This document shows positions 19,948 to 31,920 of a stretch of DNA of 64,000 bases, in pieces (the stretch's first letter is position 1; each line of letters opens with the position of its first letter). This DNA is from Planctomycetes bacterium MalM25. GTDB lineage: Bacteria; Planctomycetota; Planctomycetia; Pirellulales; Lacipirellulaceae. The DNA lies in the NCBI GenBank assembly GCA_007745835.1, contig CP036424.1:767001-831000 (forward strand). Direction: 5' to 3'. Both the position numbers and the translations under genes were made by a program. The notes under the pieces are model-generated. The model saw only the letters and a program-made list of their open reading frames with translations. It was not told the origin of the DNA and did not search any database.

Positions 19948-21681
19948 ATGTCACTCTTCGGGTCGCTACAAACGGCGAGCAACACGCTTCAGGCCATGCA
20001 GATTGGCCTGCAAGTGGTGAGCAACAATATCGCCAACGCGAACACCGAAGGGTTCATCCGCGAGCAGGTGAACTACGCACCGGCGCCGGTGCAGAAGAAG
20101 GGGCGATTGAACATCGGCCTCGGCGTGATGGTCGACAGCATCACGCAGAAGGTCGATGATTTTCTCGGCGAGCAGCTCCGCGACGCGACCGGTGATCGCG
20201 TCAGCGCCGAGCTGCAGAACGACGCCTACAAGGACCTCGAGCAGCTGCTCGGCGAGCTGTCCGACAACGACCTGAGCTCGGCGCTGACCGGCTTCTTCGG
20301 CAGCCTGCAAGACACGACCAACGCCGTCGCGGGCGACGCCCTCTCGGTGCGCAACTTGGCGGTCCTGGAGGGCCGGCAGTTGACGTCCGAGATCCGTCGG
20401 ATCGAGGACCGCGCCCGCGAGCTGCGCAACAGCTACGACGACCGCATCGCCGAGTCCGTCGGGCAGATCAATAGCCTCGCGGACGAGATCACCAAGCTCA
20501 ACATCCGCATCACCCAAACCGAAGGGGGCTCGGCCGGATCGAGCGACGCCGGCGCCCTCCGCAGCGCCCGCAACGAGGCGGTCAACAAGCTGTCCGAGCT
20601 GGTGGGCGTGACGGTCGAGGAGCAGCCGAGCGGCGGGCTCGCGATCGCGGTGGGAGGAGAGTTTCTCGTGTTCGAGGGGCAACGCCGAGAGCTTTCTCTC
20701 GAGACGGCCGACCCGGACCTCGAAGCGGCCTCGCAGCTCGTCTTCGCCGATACGGGCAAGGCGATCGAACCCAGCAGCGGAAGCATCCACGGTTACACCG
20801 TCGCACGCGACGAGATCGTTGACGGCTTCCGCGACAACCTCGACGAGTTCGCCCAGACGCTGATCTTCGAGTTCAACAAGGTCTACTCGCAGGGGCAGGG
20901 GCTCGACGGCTTCCAGTCGTTAACCAGCTACGCGGGCGTCGACGACCCGAACGTGCCCCTCGCCGCGTCAGGACTGCCGTTCCCGATTGAGAACGGCGAG
21001 TTTAAGATCACGCTGCACAACGACAGCGGATCGGTCGAGACCACGACGATCTCCGTGAAGTCGCTCAACGAGGGCGGGGGCGACGACGCCACGCTCTCGA
21101 CCGTCCGACAGCAGCTCGACGCCATCGACGGCCTGAACGCCTCGATCGGGGCCGATGGCCGTCTGTCGATCTCTGCCGACGCCTCGGATTCGCAGTTCGT
21201 TTTCTCGGACGACACCAGCGGTTTCCTCGCGGCGATCGGGCTCAACACGTTCTTCACGGGCGACGGATCGCTCGACATCAACGTGAACTCTGAGCTCGAC
21301 GGCATCCAGAACGCCGGCAAGCTCGCGCTGCGTCGGACCGACCCGACGAAGGAGACCGCCGGCCCCGGCGGAACGCAGGAGAACGCGGTGTTGCTTGCGG
21401 GCTTGCTCGACGAGCCGCTCGATTCGTTGGACGGCGCCTCGATCATCGAACGCTACGACCAAGTGGTGAACGACCTGGCTCAGAACTCGACCGTCGCCGG
21501 TTCGGTGCTCGACGGCCTCGGTGTCTTCGAGTCGACCCTCGCCAACGAGTTCCAGGCCATCAGCGGCGTGAACATCGACGAGGAGGCGATCGACATGATC
21601 TCGCTGCAGCGGATCTACCAAGCGACCGCCCGGGTGATCTCTACGATCCAAGAGATGCTCGACACCTTGGTGAATCTCTGA
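19948..21681 (+). CDS. flgK: Flagellar hook-associated protein 1 (FlgK)
   Basis: A 577-aa junction protein between hook and filament. N-terminus: SLFGSLQTASNTLQAMQIGLQVVSNNIANANTEGF (rod/hook family helix). The central FlgK core contains LGELSDNDLSSALTGFFGSLQD and ALRSARNEAVNKLSELVGV. C-terminus: FESTLANEFQAISGVNIDEEAIDMISLQRIYQATARVISTIQEMLDTLVNL. Length is close to the usual 450-650 aa, so FlgK is not inflated like its neighbours FlgL and FliD. Secreted through the flagellar export gate with FlgN-type help. Confidence 0.96.
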   Translation: MSLFGSLQTASNTLQAMQIGLQVVSNNIANANTEGFIREQVNYAPAPVQKKGRLNIGLGVMVDSITQKVDDFLGEQLRDATGDRVSAELQNDAYKDLEQLLGELSDNDLSSALTGFFGSLQDTTNAVAGDALSVRNLAVLEGRQLTSEIRRIEDRARELRNSYDDRIAESVGQINSLADEITKLNIRITQTEGGSAGSSDAGALRSARNEAVNKLSELVGVTVEEQPSGGLAIAVGGEFLVFEGQRRELSLETADPDLEAASQLVFADTGKAIEPSSGSIHGYTVARDEIVDGFRDNLDEFAQTLIFEFNKVYSQGQGLDGFQSLTSYAGVDDPNVPLAASGLPFPIENGEFKITLHNDSGSVETTTISVKSLNEGGGDDATLSTVRQQLDAIDGLNASIGADGRLSISADASDSQFVFSDDTSGFLAAIGLNTFFTGDGSLDINVNSELDGIQNAGKLALRRTDPTKETAGPGGTQENAVLLAGLLDEPLDSLDGASIIERYDQVVNDLAQNSTVAGSVLDGLGVFESTLANEFQAISGVNIDEEAIDMISLQRIYQATARVISTIQEMLDTLVNL

Positions 21682-21732: not shown

Positions 21733-24375
21733 GTGGCCACGATTCAGCCCATCGCAACCAGCCGCGTGACCGACGCCATGACGCGCGGCCGGCTGACTGC
21801 GCAGATCCAGAACGACCAGCGCGAGCTGTTCCGTCTTCAGAACCAGCTCAGCACCGGCTTTCGCATCTTCCTGCCGAGCGACGACGCCTCCGCCGCGCAG
21901 CGGGCGATGGCGTTGCAGCGGACGCTGGAGCGCAAGGAGCAGGCCTTCACCAACATCAACGGCGCGGTCGCTTCCCTGGCCACGACCGAGTCGGCGCTGT
22001 CCGGGGTGGGGACCAGCCTCAACGAACTGAAATCCCAAGCGCTATCGGTCGTCGACTCCATCACGGACGAGAACGACCGACAGGCGGTGATCAACGCGAT
22101 CGACGGCTTGCTGTTCGACCTGACCCGCGCCGGCAACTCGACCTTCGCCTCGAACTACCTGCTCGGCGGCGCCGAGCGGGCGAGCGAGGCTTACCAAGGG
22201 GTCCAGACCTACGTCGAGTACTTGGGCGACGAGTCCAGCCCCCAGACGTTTGTTGATATCGGTCAGCTCTTCGACACGGGCGTGGCGGGCGACGAGGTGC
22301 TGGGAGGCCTCTCCGAGTCGATTCGGGGCGTTTCGGACCTGAACGTACAGCTCACTCCCGAGACGCGGCTCAGCGATCTGAACGACGGTGTGGGCGTCAC
22401 GCCCAACGGGTCGATCGAGATCACCTACACGCCGACCACGCCAACGGAGCCGACGACGAGCTCTATAGTCGACCTGTCGAACGCCAAGACAATCGACGAC
22501 GTGGCCCGACTCATCGAGACCAGCGCTCCCGAAGGCTCGGTCGTCACGGTCTCGATCGAGAACAACGCGCTGCGTCTCGACACGTTCGATGGCGGCTTGC
22601 AGATCGAAGAGGTTGCGGGCGGCGTGGCGGCGAGCGAGTTGGGAGTCCTCTACGACGGCGCTCCGGCGACCTCGGTCAACGGAACGGACCTCGACCCGAT
22701 CCTCCGCCAAACGACCCGCCTCGACGACTTGGCGGGGGCGAAGGCGCGCGGCCGCCTCGAGCTGCCCGGCGCGAACAACGACCTGGTGCTCACGGCGAAC
22801 GCCAACGGGGCTTCGCTCAACAGCGTGAACGTCGAGTTCGTCGACGGCGCCACGGCCGGCTCGGAGAGTGCGACGTACGTTAGCGGAACGAACACGCTGA
22901 CGGTCACGATCGCCGCGAGCGAGTCCAACACAAACCAGATCGCCGCGGCGATCACGGCCGAAGGGACCTTCACGGCGGAGCCCGACTACTTCGACCAGAC
23001 CGCTTTCGCGGCCCGCGGGACCGGAGATGTTAGCGCCGCCGTTTACGCAGCGGCGACCGCGGGAGGTGTTGATGGTCCGGGCGGGGCGGCGAACGGTGAC
23101 ATCGACCTGGCGTCCGGCTTGCAGGTCACGAACGGCGCCGAGACTTACGTCATCGACACGTCCCGTGCGGAGACGCTCGAGGACCTGATGAGCCTGCTCA
23201 ACGATCCCAACTACGGGATGGTCGCGCGGATCAACGACACGGGCGACGGCATCGACGTCCGCACCCGCCGCAGCGGCGCCGACTTTTCCATCGGCGAGAA
23301 CGGGGGGACGACGGCCACGGACCTCGGCATCCGCTCGTACACGGAAGAGTCGCGGCTCGTCGATTTCAACCGCGGCGTCGGGGTGGTTGAGCAGTTCCCG
23401 ACCGATACCGAGACGCGTGCTCAGAATGAGTTGATTATCTCGGGTCAGGACGGCGGGACGACATTCTCTTACAGCATCGATCCGGTCGAGCTCTCGACCG
23501 TGGAGGACCTGTTCGATCGCATCGCGACGGACACGGGCGGCGCGTTCACGGCAGACCTAGCGACGACCGGCAACGGGATCGTGCTCACCCGCAACGATGT
23601 GGTCGATCCCGCGGTGACGGCGACCGGCACGGTCGGCCTCGGCGGCGACACGCTCACCTTCACGGCGAACACGCCCGGCGCGGCGGGGAACAACCCGGAC
23701 TTCACGATCGAGGTCGTCGATAACGCCTCGGGTGGCCTGAGCACCACGGTCAACGGCGACGTGATCACGGTCGATCTGGGCGGCTCCGCGACCGAGACGA
23801 GCGCAACGGTCGCCGCCAGTATCACAACCGCTTTGCCCGGCTACACGGTGACCGAGGGGCTCGCCGCCCCGGTGACCGTCCCTGAGGGGCCCAACCCGTT
23901 TGCGGTGGCCGGCGGTTTCGACGCGGATACTTTCACGGTAACCGGCGACATGGCCGAGCGGCTCGGCTTCCTCCCGGAGGGGGAGTCCTCGGTCACCTCG
24001 ACCGGCGCCTCGGTCACCTCAGCCGATCGCAACCCGCACGAGGTCGACAGCGTCTACACGACGCTCATCCGCATGCGCGAGGCGCTCGAGATCGGCGATT
24101 CGGAGGCGCTCGGCCGTGAGATCAACCGCCTGGAGGAAGACATCGACCGCGTCACGGCGGGGCGTGCGGAGGTCGGCGTGCGGCTGCGGAACCTCGAATC
24201 GATTGAGCAGCGGCTGACGGACGAGGAGGTGACGCTCCGCGAGGCGCTCTCCGACGAGATCGACGCCGACCTCGTCGAAGTGATCTCCGACTTCACCGCG
24301 AAGCAGGCTTCTCTGCAAGCGTCGTTGCAGACGTCGGGCGCTCTGCTGGGCCTGTCGATCCTCGACTTCATCTGA
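21733..24375 (+). CDS. flgL: Flagellar hook-associated protein 3 (FlgL), greatly enlarged
   Basis: An 880-aa protein, against roughly 300-400 aa for typical FlgL. Residues 1-160 carry the flagellin-like N-terminal helices (SRVTDAMTRGRLTAQIQNDQRELFRLQNQLSTGFRIFLPSDDAS); the last 130 carry the C-terminal helices. Between them are beta-rich modules, including two FlgIN-type blocks (LSDLNDGVGV near 213, LVDFNRGVGV near 541) and stretches resembling the flagellin insert (LGGDTLTFTAN...). Start is GTG 21733. It joins FlgK to the filament. The insert should project from the filament base. Confidence 0.92.
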   Translation: MATIQPIATSRVTDAMTRGRLTAQIQNDQRELFRLQNQLSTGFRIFLPSDDASAAQRAMALQRTLERKEQAFTNINGAVASLATTESALSGVGTSLNELKSQALSVVDSITDENDRQAVINAIDGLLFDLTRAGNSTFASNYLLGGAERASEAYQGVQTYVEYLGDESSPQTFVDIGQLFDTGVAGDEVLGGLSESIRGVSDLNVQLTPETRLSDLNDGVGVTPNGSIEITYTPTTPTEPTTSSIVDLSNAKTIDDVARLIETSAPEGSVVTVSIENNALRLDTFDGGLQIEEVAGGVAASELGVLYDGAPATSVNGTDLDPILRQTTRLDDLAGAKARGRLELPGANNDLVLTANANGASLNSVNVEFVDGATAGSESATYVSGTNTLTVTIAASESNTNQIAAAITAEGTFTAEPDYFDQTAFAARGTGDVSAAVYAAATAGGVDGPGGAANGDIDLASGLQVTNGAETYVIDTSRAETLEDLMSLLNDPNYGMVARINDTGDGIDVRTRRSGADFSIGENGGTTATDLGIRSYTEESRLVDFNRGVGVVEQFPTDTETRAQNELIISGQDGGTTFSYSIDPVELSTVEDLFDRIATDTGGAFTADLATTGNGIVLTRNDVVDPAVTATGTVGLGGDTLTFTANTPGAAGNNPDFTIEVVDNASGGLSTTVNGDVITVDLGGSATETSATVAASITTALPGYTVTEGLAAPVTVPEGPNPFAVAGGFDADTFTVTGDMAERLGFLPEGESSVTSTGASVTSADRNPHEVDSVYTTLIRMREALEIGDSEALGREINRLEEDIDRVTAGRAEVGVRLRNLESIEQRLTDEEVTLREALSDEIDADLVEVISDFTAKQASLQASLQTSGALLGLSILDFI

Positions 24376-24459
24376 CGGATCGGCTGTCGGATTGCGGTTC
24401 GATGTGGATTGGCTAATCCCGCAACGCGGAGTCAGCCGATGCGTCCTAAACAGGACCAT

Positions 24460-24480
24460 GCCGGCGCGATCTGCGCCGGC
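24460..24480 (+). promoter_or_regulatory. Perfect hairpin in the fliW leader
   Basis: GCCGGCGC and GCGCCGGC pair around a GATCT loop, between flgL and fliW, ending 22 nt before the fliW ATG. An ACAGGA-like CsrA core (AACAGGA) sits just 5' of it, and the ribosome-binding site AGGAGGG follows it. The arrangement resembles a CsrA-controlled leader, but no GGA is in the loop itself. Confidence 0.45.
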
Positions 24481-24502
24481 GACGTGCGCCAGGAGGGCGA
24501 CG

Positions 24503-24943
24503 ATGCAGATCAACACGACGCGATTCGGGGCGGTCGAGATCCGTCCCACCGACGTGCTCGAGTTCCCACTCGGGCTGATTGGCCTAGAGCCATGGCGGGA
24601 GTGGGTGGTGCTGGCCGACGGCCAGAACACCGGTCTCGGCTGGCTGCAATCGACCGAACGCGCCGAGCTGGCGTTGGCGGTCGTGAGCCCCCGCCGCTTT
24701 GTGCCCGACTACAAGGTGCGGCTCTCGTCGCGCGATCTGTCGCCGCTCGAGGCGCCCGAGGGCGTCGCGCCGCAGGTGGTGGTCGCGGTCAGCTGCCACG
24801 GCGGCGAGGCCCTGTCGGTCAACCTGAAGGCGCCGATCCTGGTCTGTCTCGAGTCACGCCGCGGCCGACAGGTCGTCGCCAAAGACGACCACCCGGTGCA
24901 GCATTGGCTCGGCGGTCAGCAGGCGCTGCGTCGCTCCGCCTGA
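24503..24943 (+). CDS. fliW: Flagellar assembly factor FliW
   Basis: A 146-aa cytosolic protein. FliW hallmarks: MQINTTRFGAVEI, VLEFPLGLIGLEPWREWVVL, then GWLQSTERAELALAVVSP and the C-terminal VNLKAPILVCLESRRGRQVV. FliW binds CsrA and relieves translational repression of flagellin; free flagellin displaces it, closing a feedback loop. The ATG has AGGAGGG upstream; the frame is open back to 24392 but that part is non-conserved. csrA follows 199 nt downstream and flagellin after that. Confidence 0.95.
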   Translation: MQINTTRFGAVEIRPTDVLEFPLGLIGLEPWREWVVLADGQNTGLGWLQSTERAELALAVVSPRRFVPDYKVRLSSRDLSPLEAPEGVAPQVVVAVSCHGGEALSVNLKAPILVCLESRRGRQVVAKDDHPVQHWLGGQQALRRSA

Positions 24944-25142: not shown

Positions 25143-25370
25143 ATGTTGGTCCTATCACGCCAACGAGACGAGAGCATCATCATCGGCGACAACGTGGTGA
25201 TCACGGTTGTCGATGTGCGGGGCGACAAGGTCCGGCTGGGCATCGACGCCCCCACCGAGATCCCGGTCCACCGCCGCGAGGTGTACGAGGCGATCCAGCG
25301 CGAGAACAACCGCGCGAGCCAGATCAACGCCGACCAGGCCCGCCAGGTGGGCGGCGATTCGGCTTCTTGA
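25143..25370 (+). CDS. csrA: Carbon storage regulator CsrA
   Basis: A 75-aa RNA-binding translational regulator (usual length 60-75). MLVLSRQRDESIIIGDNVVITVVDVRGDKVRLGIDAPTEIPVHRREVYEAI is the canonical CsrA fold, with the RNA-contact residues Arg6/Arg8 near the start and the IPVHRREV strand with its conserved Arg. It binds GGA-bearing leaders, classically blocking flagellin translation unless held by FliW. The position between fliW and the flagellin gene is the conserved arrangement in flagellated non-enteric bacteria. Confidence 0.97.
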   Translation: MLVLSRQRDESIIIGDNVVITVVDVRGDKVRLGIDAPTEIPVHRREVYEAIQRENNRASQINADQARQVGGDSAS

Positions 25371-25909: not shown

Positions 25910-28030
25910 ATGACACGCATTAACACGAACGTCAGCTCGCTGGTCGGCAGGAACAACCTGCAATCAGCGAACGCCGACCTCTCGCAGAGCCTGACGCGGC
26001 TCTCGACCGGTCTGCGGATCAACACCGGTAAGGACGACCCGGCCGGTTTGATCGCGAGTGAGAACCTGCGGAGCGACATCACGTCGATCAAGCGGGCGAT
26101 CAGTAACACCGACCGGGCCAACCAGGTCATCGCGACCGCCGACTCGGCCCTCGGCCAGGTCAGCTCGCTGCTGAACGACATCCGCGGCCTGGTCACGGAG
26201 TCGGCCAACTCGGGCGCCCTGTCGGACGAGCAGATCTCCGCCAACCAGCTGCAGGTCGATTCGTCGCTCGAGGCCCTCAACCGGATCGCCCAGACGACCG
26301 AGTTCCAGGGTCGCCGCCTGCTGAACGGCAGCCTCGACTTCACGGTCTCCGGCGGCGCCAACTTCTCGAACATCTCCGATCTGTCGATCGACCAAGCCAA
26401 CCTCGGCGCCACGGGTGAAGTGGCCGTCGAAGTCGATGTCCAGACGGCCGCCACGCAGGCCTCGGTTGAAGTGACCGGCATCGATCTGGATTCCGCCGCC
26501 GCCCAGGGCGTTTCGACCGTCGGCCTCACCGCCGTGGTCGATGGCGCCAACGGCACCATCGAGATCGGTGGCGACACGCTCACACTGGAAACCGTCGACC
26601 GCACCGGCGCCACGCTGGACGGCACGTACACCATCAACATCACCGACAGCGGCTCGGGCGGTTTGGCGGTGACGGGCTCCGGCACCGACATCGACGTCGA
26701 CCTCGGTGGAGCCACCTCGACATTCGCCCAGCTCGCCACGGCGATCCAGGGCGACTCTCGCTTCTCCGCCGTTTCGGCCGCTACCGGAACCGGTAACGTA
26801 GCGATCGGCGATGACGGCGCTACGGGTGATCTCGTTGGTTCGCAGGTTGCGAGCACCGACACGATCACGCTGACCACCGTTGGTGACACCAACGACTACA
26901 ACGCGACGACGCTCGACATCGTCTACGACGAAACGATCTCGGCGAACTCGTCTGAGGCCGCCTACGATGCCGACAGTGATACCATCACGGTCAGCGTCAA
27001 CGGCGACCAGACGTACGCTCAGATTGCCACAACGATCTCGACCGACCTGAGCGACACGTTCACGGCGGCCGCCACGACGGGCACCGGCACCGTCAACGGC
27101 TCCTCGCAAGCCGCGGCGGCTTCCAACTTGGTCGCTGCGGCTCCGTCGTTCGTCACCCCCGGTAACCCGGGCGGTCTGTCCGAAGACATCGTCTTCGAGC
27201 TGGCCGGCGCCACGGGAGCCGAGGTGTTCAGCTTCCAGGCGGGCACGTCGCTTGAGGACGTGATCTCGTCGATCAACCTGTTCACCGACTCGACCGGGGT
27301 CGAGGCCGCCGAGTTCACCACGGGCGACACGACGCTGACTCTACAGTCGGCGGATTACGGCTCGAACGCGTTCGTCGACGTGAATGTCGTTACCGAAGGC
27401 CAGGGCACCTCGGCCAACGGCGACTTCACCACGGCGATCGGCTCGGGCGCCCGCGACATCGGTTCCGACGTGGTCGCCACGGTCAACGGCCTGCTGGCCA
27501 ATGCCGACGGCAACAGCCTGTCGATCAACACCGCGTCGCTCGACCTGTCACTCGACTTGGTGGCCGGCACAACCGGCACGGTCAACTTCGACATCACCGG
27601 CGGTGGCGCCCTGTTCCAGCTCGGCGCCGACGTGGTGTCGAACCAGCAGGCCCGCCTCGGCATCGGCAGCGTGAACACGGCCAGCCTCGGTGGTGTGAGC
27701 GGCCTGCTGTACCAGCTCGGCTCGGGCCAAGCGTCGGACCTGGCCAGCGACCCGACGACCGCCTTCCAGATCGTCGACCAGGCGATCGACCAGGTGACGT
27801 CGCTCCGTGGTCGTCTGGGCGCCTTCCAGCGGACGTCGCTTGAGACGAACAAGAACGCCTTGAACGACACGCTCACGAACCTCACCGAGGCCGAGAGCAG
27901 CATCCGCGACGCCGACTTCGCCGAAGAGACCGCGAACCTCACCCGTTCGCAGATCCTCGTCCAGTCGGGCACCCGGGTCTTGGCGATCGCCAACCAGAAC
28001 CCGCAGAACGTCTTGGCCCTGTTGGGTTAA
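25910..28030 (+). CDS. fliC: Flagellin
   Basis: A 706-aa filament subunit, well above the 270-500 aa typical. The N-terminal D0/D1 (1 to about 155) is classic: MTRINTNVSSLVGRNNLQ, LSTGLRINTGKDDPAGLIASENLRSDI, TTEFQGRRLLNGS. The C-terminal D1/D0 (about 570-706) ends SQILVQSGTRVLAIANQNPQNVLALLG. The roughly 400-residue centre is a Thr/Ser/Gly/Asp-rich beta insert resembling modules in FlgL. It is the sole flagellin in the window, with its own upstream region and terminator, probably under FliW/CsrA control. Confidence 0.97.
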   Translation: MTRINTNVSSLVGRNNLQSANADLSQSLTRLSTGLRINTGKDDPAGLIASENLRSDITSIKRAISNTDRANQVIATADSALGQVSSLLNDIRGLVTESANSGALSDEQISANQLQVDSSLEALNRIAQTTEFQGRRLLNGSLDFTVSGGANFSNISDLSIDQANLGATGEVAVEVDVQTAATQASVEVTGIDLDSAAAQGVSTVGLTAVVDGANGTIEIGGDTLTLETVDRTGATLDGTYTINITDSGSGGLAVTGSGTDIDVDLGGATSTFAQLATAIQGDSRFSAVSAATGTGNVAIGDDGATGDLVGSQVASTDTITLTTVGDTNDYNATTLDIVYDETISANSSEAAYDADSDTITVSVNGDQTYAQIATTISTDLSDTFTAAATTGTGTVNGSSQAAAASNLVAAAPSFVTPGNPGGLSEDIVFELAGATGAEVFSFQAGTSLEDVISSINLFTDSTGVEAAEFTTGDTTLTLQSADYGSNAFVDVNVVTEGQGTSANGDFTTAIGSGARDIGSDVVATVNGLLANADGNSLSINTASLDLSLDLVAGTTGTVNFDITGGGALFQLGADVVSNQQARLGIGSVNTASLGGVSGLLYQLGSGQASDLASDPTTAFQIVDQAIDQVTSLRGRLGAFQRTSLETNKNALNDTLTNLTEAESSIRDADFAEETANLTRSQILVQSGTRVLAIANQNPQNVLALLG

Positions 28031-28103: not shown

Positions 28104-28257
28104 GCGCAAACGCGCGCTCTCCCCTCACGGTTTGCTCAAGCCGGAGACGACGCCTAACCGAACTTAAGGAAGACGCTGCGCCCCGCTGCCATGACCTAGG
28201 GTGTTACTAGCGTGGGAATCCGCCCACGCCGCGTCGCCAGCCAGCTACGTCCCGCCC

Positions 28258-31200
28258 ATGTCCAGGATCTCCAGCACCGGTATCTCGACCAGCGCCGGCT
28301 TGGTATCGGGGATCCCGATCCAAGACACGGTCGATCAGCTCATGGCGCTCTCCGCGCGCCCTCGCGATCTGCTCATCAACCGCACCGGCGGTCTGCAAGC
28401 GGAACGCACGGCGGTCGATCGGCTCTCCTCGCTCGTGCTGGGCTTTCAGTTCTCACTGAACTCGCTGAGCAGCGCGTCGGCCTTCTCGGGCCGGTCGGCC
28501 ACGTCGAGCAGCGAGGCCGTGTCGGTCTCGATCCCTAGCGGAGAGAACCCGGCGCTCGGTTCGTACACCTTCACCCCGCTCAAGTCCGCCGCTTCGCATC
28601 AAGTCGTGAGCGGCGGGGTCACGAACCTGAGCGACTCGCTCGGCACGGGCACGCTTCGCATCCGTAACGGGGGGCAGGTCGATAAGGGGGTATCGCTCTC
28701 ACAGCTCAACGGGGGCAGTGGCTTCCAACCCGGTCGCATCCGCCTGACCGACCGCGACGGCGCCACGGCGACGATCGACCTGCGCGCGGCCACCACGGTG
28801 GACGATGTGCTGTACGAGATCAACCAGAACGACGACGTCGCGATCACGGCGTCGACCAGCGGCGACCAGTTCGTGCTGACCGACACCTCCGGCGGCGCGG
28901 GGACGCTGGCCGTGGAGGACCTGAGCGGCGGCTCGTCCGCGACGAGCCTCGGCCTCACGGGCGTGTCGGCGGTGGGCGACACGCTGACCGGCGCCGATGT
29001 CTTCGGCCTAACCACCTCGACATCACTCGCCTCGCTGAACGACGGCCGCGGCGTGGACGCGAACGGCACAGCGGTCACGGACCTGAAGGTCACCGCGCGC
29101 GACGGCACGACCGCCGAAATCGAGCTGGATGGCCTCTCGACGCTCGGTGAGGTGATCGACGCGATCAACAACAACGAGACACTCGATGGCAAGGTCGAGG
29201 TCGCCATCGCCGCCGATGGATCACGCCTCGAAGTTACAGACACTTTCGGTGGGTCGGGCAATTTAACGATCGAGAACGCTCAAACCGTAGACAGTCTGAT
29301 CTCGTCAGCGGTGGACGATCTGGGGTTGGCGATTGACGTTGCGAGCAACTCGGCGACCGGCGGACGCTTGGTCTCGGGCCTGAGCGACACGCTGCTGTCG
29401 AGCCTCAACGGCGGATCGGGCATCGACGCCGCTTCGATCGACATCACCGACCGCGATGGCGACGCCGCCACGGTCGATCTCTCTACCGCCGAGACACTCG
29501 GCGAGGTGATCGACGCGATCAACGCCGCGGGGATCGACCTCACGGCAGCGTACAACGACAGCCGCAGCGGAATCGTTATTGAGGCGACCGGCTCAGGCAC
29601 GGGCTCGCTCACCATCGCCGAGAACGGTGGCACGACGGGGGCCGACCTGGGCATCCTTGTCGACGACACGGTCGCTTCGATCGACAGCGGCACGCTCAAC
29701 CGGGCGACGGTCGCCGGCTCGACGCGGCTCTCCGACCTGAACGGCGGGGAGGGCGTCTCCCTGGGCAGGATCCGGATCACCGGCTCCGACGGCGGCACGT
29801 CGGACATCGACCTCCGCTTCACTGGGCAGGACGAGCCGACCCTCGGCGACGTGATCCGAAGTATCAATCTGCGTACCGGCGACACGGGCGTTGAGGCGAG
29901 CCTCAACGCCACCGGAGACGGCCTGTTGCTCACCGACACCGCGGGCGGCTCCGGCACGCTGACCGTCAGCGAACTCTCTGGTGGGAGCACCGCCGAGGGC
30001 CTGCGGATCCTGGGCGCGTCGACCACGACCAACGAGTCCGATCAGCAGACGATCGACGGCACGACCAGCTTCGCCCTCGATCTCGCCGAGCTGAGCGGCT
30101 CGGGCGCCGACACCCCGCTGAGCGCGTTGAACGACGGCGAAGGGGTGGCGGCGGGCGTGATCCAGATCCAGGATTCCTCCTACGACGAGGACGCCGGCAC
30201 GGGCGAGGCCTTCATCGACCTGACTGGCGCCGAGACGCTGCAAGACGTGATCGACGCGATCAACGCCTCCGCGGAGGTGTCGGTCAATGCGGAGCTCAAC
30301 GACAACGGCAATGGCATTAAGATCACCGACGAAGCCGGGGGCGCCGGCGACCTGGTAATCGATAATCTCGGCGCTAGCGGCACGACCGCTTCCGACTTGG
30401 GCATCGAGGGAACGTTCTCGACGACCAACTCGGAAGGAGAGATCGTCGCCAACGGCTCAGCGGTCCTCACGACCGACGGCGGCCTCGAACAGCTCGCCCA
30501 ACGCATCAACAACCTCGACGCCGGCATCACGGCGGCGGTGGTGTTCGACGGTTTCGGCTACCGGCTGTCGATCGCATCGGATCAGACGGGCTCGCCGAAC
30601 GAGCTGCTGATTGACGACTCGGAGGTCTCGCTCTCGTTCACCCAGACCAGCCGCCCGAGCGACGCGGTCGCTCTCTACGGCACGGAGGGTCAGGGCGGCT
30701 TCACCGTGGTCTCGCAGGACGGCACGTACAACGAGATCGTCGATGGCCTGGACATCAGCGTGAATCAGGCGACCGGCGAGGCGGTGACGCTCGACGTGGT
30801 CTCCGACGACGACGGGCTCTTCGAATCGATCCAATCGTTCGTCGATTCGTACAACTCGCTCCGCGATAACCTCGACGCGGTCACCGAGTTCGACGCCGAG
30901 GCGGAGACCACCGGCATCCTGTTCGGCCGCAACGAGGCGAACCGGGTCGACACCGAGCTGGGGCGCGTCCTGTCGGGGCGTTTCACGTTCGGCACGAACT
31001 ACACGTCGCTCGAGTCGGTCGGCATCAGCCTCGACCGCGACGGCAAGCTCTCCCTCGACGAGTCCAAACTGCGCGACGCGCTCACCGACGACCGGACCGC
31101 CGTCGAGGACTTGTTCTCGAACGAGGACCGTGGTGTGGTCGCCCAGGTGACCGCGGTCACCGAGCGCCTCGCCGGGGACAACTCGCTGCTGTCGTCCCGC

Positions 31201-31395
31201 TCCGAGGCGCTCGCCGACACGATCGAGATCAACAACCAGCGCGTCTCCGATTTCAACGATCGGCTCGACCGTGAGCGCGAGACCCTCTTGCTGCAGTTCA
31301 TCCAGCTCGAAGAGACGATCGCTCTGCTGCAATCCAACACCAGCTTCTTGAGTGGCATCGTGCCGGTGACCTCTTCCGGTTCCAGTAACCAGTAA
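28258..31395 (+). CDS. fliD: Flagellar filament cap FliD (HAP2), giant form with five FlgIN-type repeats
   Basis: A 1045-aa protein, against about 450-700 aa in most bacteria. N-terminal FliD domain: SRISSTGISTSAGLVSGIPIQDTVDQLMALSARP. C-terminal domain: LFESIQSFVDSYNSLRDNL, VGISLDRDGKLSLDESKLRDAL, and a final coiled coil. Between them is a chain of five repeats beginning near residues 145, 257, 378, 490 and 619, each with L..LNGG.G, an ITDRDG..A.IDL strand, then T(L)GEVIDAIN. ATG 28258 is chosen; the frame is open to 28201. It caps the filament and folds incoming flagellin. Confidence 0.94.
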   Translation: MSRISSTGISTSAGLVSGIPIQDTVDQLMALSARPRDLLINRTGGLQAERTAVDRLSSLVLGFQFSLNSLSSASAFSGRSATSSSEAVSVSIPSGENPALGSYTFTPLKSAASHQVVSGGVTNLSDSLGTGTLRIRNGGQVDKGVSLSQLNGGSGFQPGRIRLTDRDGATATIDLRAATTVDDVLYEINQNDDVAITASTSGDQFVLTDTSGGAGTLAVEDLSGGSSATSLGLTGVSAVGDTLTGADVFGLTTSTSLASLNDGRGVDANGTAVTDLKVTARDGTTAEIELDGLSTLGEVIDAINNNETLDGKVEVAIAADGSRLEVTDTFGGSGNLTIENAQTVDSLISSAVDDLGLAIDVASNSATGGRLVSGLSDTLLSSLNGGSGIDAASIDITDRDGDAATVDLSTAETLGEVIDAINAAGIDLTAAYNDSRSGIVIEATGSGTGSLTIAENGGTTGADLGILVDDTVASIDSGTLNRATVAGSTRLSDLNGGEGVSLGRIRITGSDGGTSDIDLRFTGQDEPTLGDVIRSINLRTGDTGVEASLNATGDGLLLTDTAGGSGTLTVSELSGGSTAEGLRILGASTTTNESDQQTIDGTTSFALDLAELSGSGADTPLSALNDGEGVAAGVIQIQDSSYDEDAGTGEAFIDLTGAETLQDVIDAINASAEVSVNAELNDNGNGIKITDEAGGAGDLVIDNLGASGTTASDLGIEGTFSTTNSEGEIVANGSAVLTTDGGLEQLAQRINNLDAGITAAVVFDGFGYRLSIASDQTGSPNELLIDDSEVSLSFTQTSRPSDAVALYGTEGQGGFTVVSQDGTYNEIVDGLDISVNQATGEAVTLDVVSDDDGLFESIQSFVDSYNSLRDNLDAVTEFDAEAETTGILFGRNEANRVDTELGRVLSGRFTFGTNYTSLESVGISLDRDGKLSLDESKLRDALTDDRTAVEDLFSNEDRGVVAQVTAVTERLAGDNSLLSSRSEALADTIEINNQRVSDFNDRLDRERETLLLQFIQLEETIALLQSNTSFLSGIVPVTSSGSSNQ

Positions 31396-31440: not shown

Positions 31441-31920
31441 ATGAGCCATCAGAACCGCGAGTACCTCGAAGCGAAGGTCCAGACCGCCAACTCGGCGCAG
31501 CTGCACCTGATGCTCATCGACGGAGCCCTCCGCTTCGGCCGCGAGGCGGAGAAGGGCGTCCTCCGCCGCGACGAGGTCGCCTACCAGCCCCCCCTCATGC
31601 GGGCGATGGATATCGTCGGCGAGCTGCTCGCCGGCGTCCGGCACAACAAGACCGACCTGAACGCCAAGCTGGCCCAGCTGTACGCGTTCGTCTACGCCCG
31701 GATGACGAGCGCCTACGTGAACGCGGACAAGGCGGCCATGGCCGAGGCGTTGCAAGTCCTGGAGATCGAGCGAGAGACCTGGCGCCAGGCGGTCGAGAAG
31801 CTCGGCGCCGAACAGGCCGCCCAGCCGGGGGTCCAGTCCCGCAAGAAGCCCGCCCCCAAGCCCCACCTGGGCTCAGCCCCCGCCGCGACGCCGGCGACCG
31901 GCCTATCGCTAGAGGCCTGA
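31441..31920 (+). CDS. fliS: Flagellar export chaperone FliS
   Basis: A 159-aa cytosolic helical chaperone that binds the flagellin C-terminus before export. Motifs: EYLEAKVQTANSAQLHLMLIDGALRFGREAE, MRAMDIVGELLAGVRHNKTDLNAKLAQLYAFVYARMTSAYVNADKAAM. The final 35 residues are an extended Pro/Ala/Lys tail beyond the usual FliS length of about 125-135 aa. It follows fliD by 45 nt, the standard fliD-fliS order, and closes the flagellar run. Confidence 0.92.
   Translation: MSHQNREYLEAKVQTANSAQLHLMLIDGALRFGREAEKGVLRRDEVAYQPPLMRAMDIVGELLAGVRHNKTDLNAKLAQLYAFVYARMTSAYVNADKAAMAEALQVLEIERETWRQAVEKLGAEQAAQPGVQSRKKPAPKPHLGSAPAATPATGLSLEA

Follow-up and report, generated by a model that had tools for sequence, protein, structure and literature searches.

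An Ordered Array of D3-like Modules in the Flagellar Filament Cap Protein FliD of Planctomycetes bacterium MalM25 and Its Relatives

Introduction

The filament cap protein FliD of Salmonella and Escherichia coli is composed of domains D0 to D3, of which D3 is present in one copy, and the E. coli protein is 468 aa long. In Pseudomonas aeruginosa FliD the equivalent of D3, called Head 2, is described as a single uninterrupted insertion within Head 1 (PMC5072837). An enlarged cap is known from Campylobacter (structures 9gsx, with a chain of 642 aa, and 6sih), in which the head is expanded outside the cavity and FlgL has a bulky D2 domain. The account given in PMC12221982 places the extra D4 domain of C. 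jejuni FliD between D3 and FlgL, far from the cavity, and names the hook-filament junction as the site of cap assembly. An outer expansion of a different filament protein is found in the giant flagellins of more than 1000 aa (PMC6248924); Planctomycetes are among the phyla listed there, but the report concerns the flagellin rather than the cap, and FliD is absent from its main text. The cap has been solved structurally in few bacteria, and the cap together with the junction in fewer.

Here we describe the fliD gene of Planctomycetes bacterium MalM25, which has a genome of 4.72 Mb. The window, that is, the whole stretch of DNA that was analysed, comprises 64,000 nucleotides of contig CP036424.1. 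The related records that are named below belong to Pirellulales and other Planctomycetota.

Results

The open reading frame at positions 28258-31395 (+ strand) codes for a protein of 1045 aa that was identified as FliD. Its start is consistent with those of relatives, a comparison for which the aligned methionine of L005 and L006 was picked by hand; an alternative upstream GTG is located at position 28201. The Pfam domains FliD_N and FliD_C were both detected above their gathering scores (47.5 bits, cut-off 24.8, and 132.9 bits, cut-off 25.4). FliD_N spans residues 17-111 (28306-28590, E 2.8e-12) and by analogy would include the D0/D1 entry and the start of D2, while FliD_C spans residues 814-1025 (30697-31332, E 1.6e-38) and would include the end of D2, D1 and D0. 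Between them, three stretches matched Flagellin_IN (PF07196; 38.9 bits, cut-off 22.7). The NCBIfam equivalog models for FliD gave lower values in relation to their thresholds, with the six that matched scoring 66-81 bits against cut-offs of 375-500, none of which was reached. In our view these models cover narrow groups, and the missed cut-offs limit the group to which the protein can be assigned and not the family. The gene is preceded by fliC, coding for a flagellin of 706 aa (25910-28030, +), and followed immediately 3′ by fliS (31441-31920, +; Pfam E 6.8e-23), in a cluster that also includes flgK (19948-21681, +; 577 aa) and flgL (21733-24375, +; 880 aa), which codes for the hook-filament junction protein. 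Two frames between flgL and fliC, at 24392-24943 and 25143-25370, resemble genes that we take to be fliW and csrA. The exact sigma-28 type consensus does not occur in the window, where no occurrence was expected either. The first-pass annotation had judged the protein to be about twice the usual length, a fair estimate considering the 468 aa of E. coli FliD and the 440-673 positions of the six matching NCBIfam FliD profiles, and had also rightly described FlgL and the flagellin of this genome as enlarged.

A profile built from the modules in the window and those of relatives recognized five full modules, with scores of 73-95 bits each, and a half module with 7.6 bits. The full modules are p1 (residues 144-235; 28687-28962; 94.9 bits), p2 (residues 254-358; 29017-29331; 73.5 bits), p3 (residues 377-467; 29386-29658; 92.3 bits), p4 (residues 488-586; 29719-30015; 92.4 bits) and p5 (residues 618-719; 30109-30414; 94.1 bits), the last of which is nearest to p4. 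The pattern L..LN.G.G is found at residues 147, 257, 380, 491 and 621. The five Flagellin_IN-type repeats of the first-pass annotation were right; it had placed their starts near residues 145, 257, 378, 490 and 619 and had missed the half module (residues 739-788; 30472-30621). Several NCBIfam FliD profiles resume their alignment from residues 736-740, and for this reason the half module is probably the C-terminal remnant of the original, ordinary D3. Taken together, the anatomy is well supported: this is a genuine FliD with a multiplied D3 head domain. It has in common with the Salmonella and E. coli proteins the FliD_N and FliD_C ends, the downstream fliS and a D3-type fold at the corresponding place; however, where those proteins have one D3, the protein described here has five full modules and a half. 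It also differs from Campylobacter FliD, in which the head has a single extra domain and no ordered series of D3-like copies. When the whole protein was compared with the Campylobacter chains 9gsx and 6sih, the best sequence match covered residues 814-957.

The fold of the modules was analyzed with a model of 119 residues around p3, linkers included, built from 17 module sequences (mean pLDDT 89.3). The order of elements in the model is strand-strand-helix-strand-strand-strand-helix followed by two more short strands. In a Foldseek search, the top 13 rows, representing seven entries, were all FliD or complexes containing FliD (best E 5e-3). A VIA search produced FliD chains in 11 of its 13 best rows, from E. 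coli, Serratia, Salmonella, Bdellovibrio and others, aligned within chain residues 112-229 with Z from 7.7 to 6.4; the best FliD match had Z 7.7, rmsd 2.7 and 88 aligned residues. The first 13 rows also include two of Vibrio filaments, with Vibrio FlaA tied at Z 7.7, and all module matches are below Z 8, a range in which the score can reflect just a common arrangement. Full-length FliD, modelled with AlphaFold from four sequences, reached a mean pLDDT of 58 and a pTM of 0.29 and was left out of the fold search. At the sequence level, the module profile matched E. coli FliD at residues 125-195 with 17.8 bits. A module-only profile compared with solved structures gave weak matches, the best being an OTU1 ubiquitin-like domain (E 0.005), with FliD chains at E values of 0.2 and above. 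Fold and place in the sequence both put the modules with D3 (Head 2) of FliD, with modest scores. The position of the array agrees with the place of the D3 insertion, as Head 2 of the P. aeruginosa protein is a contiguous insert in Head 1 (PMC5072837). The predicted fold and the profile match to E. coli FliD support a resemblance of each module to this domain.

Parts of the array are repeated at the DNA level. The 18-mer GTGATCGACGCGATCAAC is present at 29152, 29506 and 30247, in agreement with the near-identical DNA previously noticed at three places, and short identical words of this kind could be taken as a sign that the array is an assembly artifact or the result of tandem duplication in recent times. 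However, codons for residues shared across module pairs are identical in 209 of 390 cases, while 208.2 are expected from the codon usage of fliD; the repeated words are therefore not the product of recent copying. Furthermore, similar arrays are present in many other genomes and in the named records L004-L006. A recent or artifactual origin is thus refuted.

Whole FliDs could be read in 27 of the 36 genomes of the same family, the other nine having no match or a weak one, a fragment or an internal stop. Repeat number does not vary at the level of strains: twenty-five of these proteins have five full modules, and the remaining two, G025 and G034, have four full modules plus a half module that was taken as the fifth. 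Across the 27 proteins, modules at the same position in different species share a mean identity of 0.54, compared to 0.39 for modules at different positions, own protein included. Most FliDs read from other Pirellulales show p1-p4, and p5 is probably an addition within the family of the window. Among these other Pirellulales proteins, the six of greatest length (1142-1260 aa) have grown by inserts in p2 and not by extra full modules. Outside Pirellulales, the order p1-p2-p3-p4/p5 was found in 23 of 29 FliDs with at least four modules over 25 bits, and p1 comes first in all 29. When the labels were shuffled, the ordered arrangement was obtained in a mean of 1.4 proteins (maximum 6) and p1 came first in a mean of 6.4 (maximum 14). 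On this sequence evidence, the array is old and the order of its modules has been kept in distant relatives.

FliD_C is present in 148 of 294 genomes of the phylum. Among the matches listed, frame lengths go from fragments and about 440 aa up to nearly 2000 aa, with many each in two clusters at 450-610 and 910-1350 aa. P0001 is matched by 45 of the 59 relatives, and most frames of the same family have 1037-1078 aa. A large FliD is ordinary in the family of the window and frequent in the phylum. Universality of the size had been named beforehand as an outcome that would count against the first-pass reading; it does not hold, since large and small FliDs both occur in Planctomycetota. Among the matches listed from the open-licence PMC literature, no account of a planctomycete FliD or of such an array was found. 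Three FliD frames, of 1973 (G090:C103), 1808 (G286:C340) and 1471 aa (G152:C25), are longer than their module count explains. Another, of 1024 aa (G304:C1:2577800-2583500, L195), has just two modules, is enlarged otherwise and is accompanied by an FlgL of 300 aa.

The FlgL encoded in the window includes modules of the same family. Three of type A are located at 22360-22647 (60.2 bits), 23113-23334 (60.0 bits) and 23347-23598 (31.5 bits), all on the + strand, and there are two of type B, a type also found in flagellins; that at 22777-23037 (+) scores 82 bits with a profile that the stretch itself seeded. We then compared FliD and FlgL in the 84 genomes in which both could be read, which were hand-picked for spread and assembly from the matches among relatives and in the phylum and exclude E. 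coli and L004. All 56 genomes with at least four FliD modules, a threshold for an array that was chosen after the counts were seen, have an FlgL with at least two modules of the family (three in 48 of them), while none of the 28 with three or fewer FliD modules has modules in FlgL. Splitting by FliD length instead gave FlgL modules in 56 of 57 long and 0 of 27 short, with G304 as the exception. The numbers of modules in the two proteins do not rise together (Spearman −0.40, 42 array genomes). A colinear copy of p1-p3 as the source of the FlgL modules was considered and discarded because there is no position-for-position match.

Flagellins were read where they lie inside the fetched stretches, and the full type A module was present in 0 of 80. 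The flagellin of the window, at 706 aa, is below the giant class of more than 1000 aa, which some relatives enter with up to 1429 aa. It is devoid of type A modules, matches type B weakly twice (14 and 22 bits) and has one Flagellin_IN match over the cut-off, at 27197-27310. The decorated filament that had been proposed earlier is not seen as far as the full module is concerned, even though this one Flagellin_IN stretch is there. Copy numbers of the type B module in FlgL and FliC are correlated (Spearman 0.64, n = 42), as counted by a two-round profile in competition with type A. FlgL was told from FliC by the ratio of the two C-terminal scores, at a cut set by eye. The flagellins read have from zero to eight type B copies, and the longest, of 1429 aa, is that of G048. 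FlgK was compared in 30 genomes (L339-L368); it has 569-600 aa in 15 of the 17 of the array type, with 664 and 683 aa in the other two; the 13 of the classical type have 657-942 aa.

An RpoB tree of 80 genomes, which leaves out the array genomes G002, G003, G015 and G020, calls for six or more changes of the array state. This tree includes a row that fills 46% of the columns (G271), two partial rows (G188 and G044) and a long branch (G118). It provides four well-supported independent pairs, all concordant (sign test, p 0.125). On the trees of the FliD ends and of the FlgL ends, by comparison, the state changes once each. For this reason the idea that the 56 of 56 genomes represent as many independent joint gains was rejected. 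FlhA and FlgK trees were built for 30 hand-chosen genomes, with the broken FlhA frame of G146 left out of the former. One change suffices for FlgK; FlhA needs two, because three genomes of one family, f21, that are otherwise of the classical type have an additional flhA, which falls with the array-type flhA found in that family. The second FlhA of G194 has a very long branch and groups on the classical side. AU tests, which followed sight of the earlier trees and excluded the second FlhA of G194, rejected f21 as one clade for FlgL, FlhA and FlgK (p 1e-7, 9e-31 and 2e-10, respectively). The N-terminal part and tail of FliD (32 rows) required two changes, and a single f21 clade was not rejected (p 0.12). 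In the 32-row FlgL tree, the support for the array side is just 60. Comparison of the gene trees with the RpoB tree suggests that two flagellar lineages have spread against the species tree, and the simplest account would be two flagellar gene lineages with at least one joint replacement of several flagellar genes.

Discussion

The arrangement found in MalM25 may have arisen by multiplication of D3 near its own insertion point in D2, producing five full copies followed by the probable remnant of the original. In a pentameric cap, the star of head domains would grow outward through these copies, clear of the folding cavity, into a canopy with about 25 full D3 domains. At the start of the filament, when the cap would first assemble on the FlgL ring, the module-bearing FlgL and FliD may fit each other there, in a way modelled on Campylobacter, where the extra D4 of FliD meets the bulky D2 of FlgL. 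By this analogy, the enlarged outer cap could be matched to a module-bearing junction ring and have a role in starting the filament, a reading in which our confidence is evenly divided. The argument from contact between FliD and FlgL is weakened by the trees, because the match in modules may be inherited and not repeatedly selected; joint inheritance of whole flagellar systems, with one change of state, could explain why the two proteins carry modules in company even if they do not touch.

Other roles have to be weighed against this one. A larger cap could be needed as a chamber in which larger flagellin subunits fold, as the first-pass annotation had supposed, and FliD and FliC lengths are indeed correlated in 66 genomes of both types (Spearman 0.69). 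This value reflects the split between the two types, however, and within the large type (FliD of at least 900 aa, n = 43) the lengths are unrelated (Spearman −0.003). Moreover, the longest flagellin read is of 481-521 aa in 9 of 42 array genomes, and the extra domain of C. jejuni FliD sits away from the cavity (PMC12221982), all of which makes the chamber very unlikely. The array might instead be an exposed organ at the filament tip, used for adhesion or glycan binding as the swimming cell settles on a surface. Adhesin repeats vary in number, unlike the distinct and ordered modules of a protein whose length is near constant in the family, and modules of the same type are found in FlgL, at the opposite end of the filament; this function is therefore unlikely. 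A third proposal assigns the array no special task: it would have come with one ancient flagellar lineage and been kept by joint inheritance. The single change of state on the FliD-end, FlgL-end and FlgK trees and the replacement of flagellar genes within one family are in its favor. Nonetheless, p1-p4 remain distinct and ordered, and array FliDs keep at least four modules where the 28 others have three or fewer, a separation that free decay would hardly give, and we consider this proposal quite unlikely as well.

The preferred reading, a cap matched to the junction ring, can be joined to the two lineages in a more specific and only tentatively held picture. If each of 11 FlgL subunits, the number in Salmonella and Campylobacter, contributes three modules, a ring of about 33 would be met at the start of the filament by a cap with about 25 to 30 D3-like domains through like-to-like contacts, in one of two planctomycete flagellar lineages between which an exchange would have left part of one family with the classical type together with the flhA of the other lineage. 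A multiplied cap head that coexists with a domain-sharing junction protein offers a natural test of the role of the outer head and of how the cap is seated on the ring. In addition, the number of FliD modules is a simple marker that splits two flagellar gene lineages among the planctomycete genomes examined.

The second flhA of the classical-type f21 genomes is located at L369:8357-10435 (G163), L370:9231-11558 (G347) and in L371 (G145). It appears to be left over from a system that was replaced. The 10 proteins scanned around the second flhA in each of L369 and L370 included no other flagellar family. A sigma factor gene adjoins it in L369, and in L370 it is followed by a gene for an SRP54-type GTPase, which by its position would be flhF.
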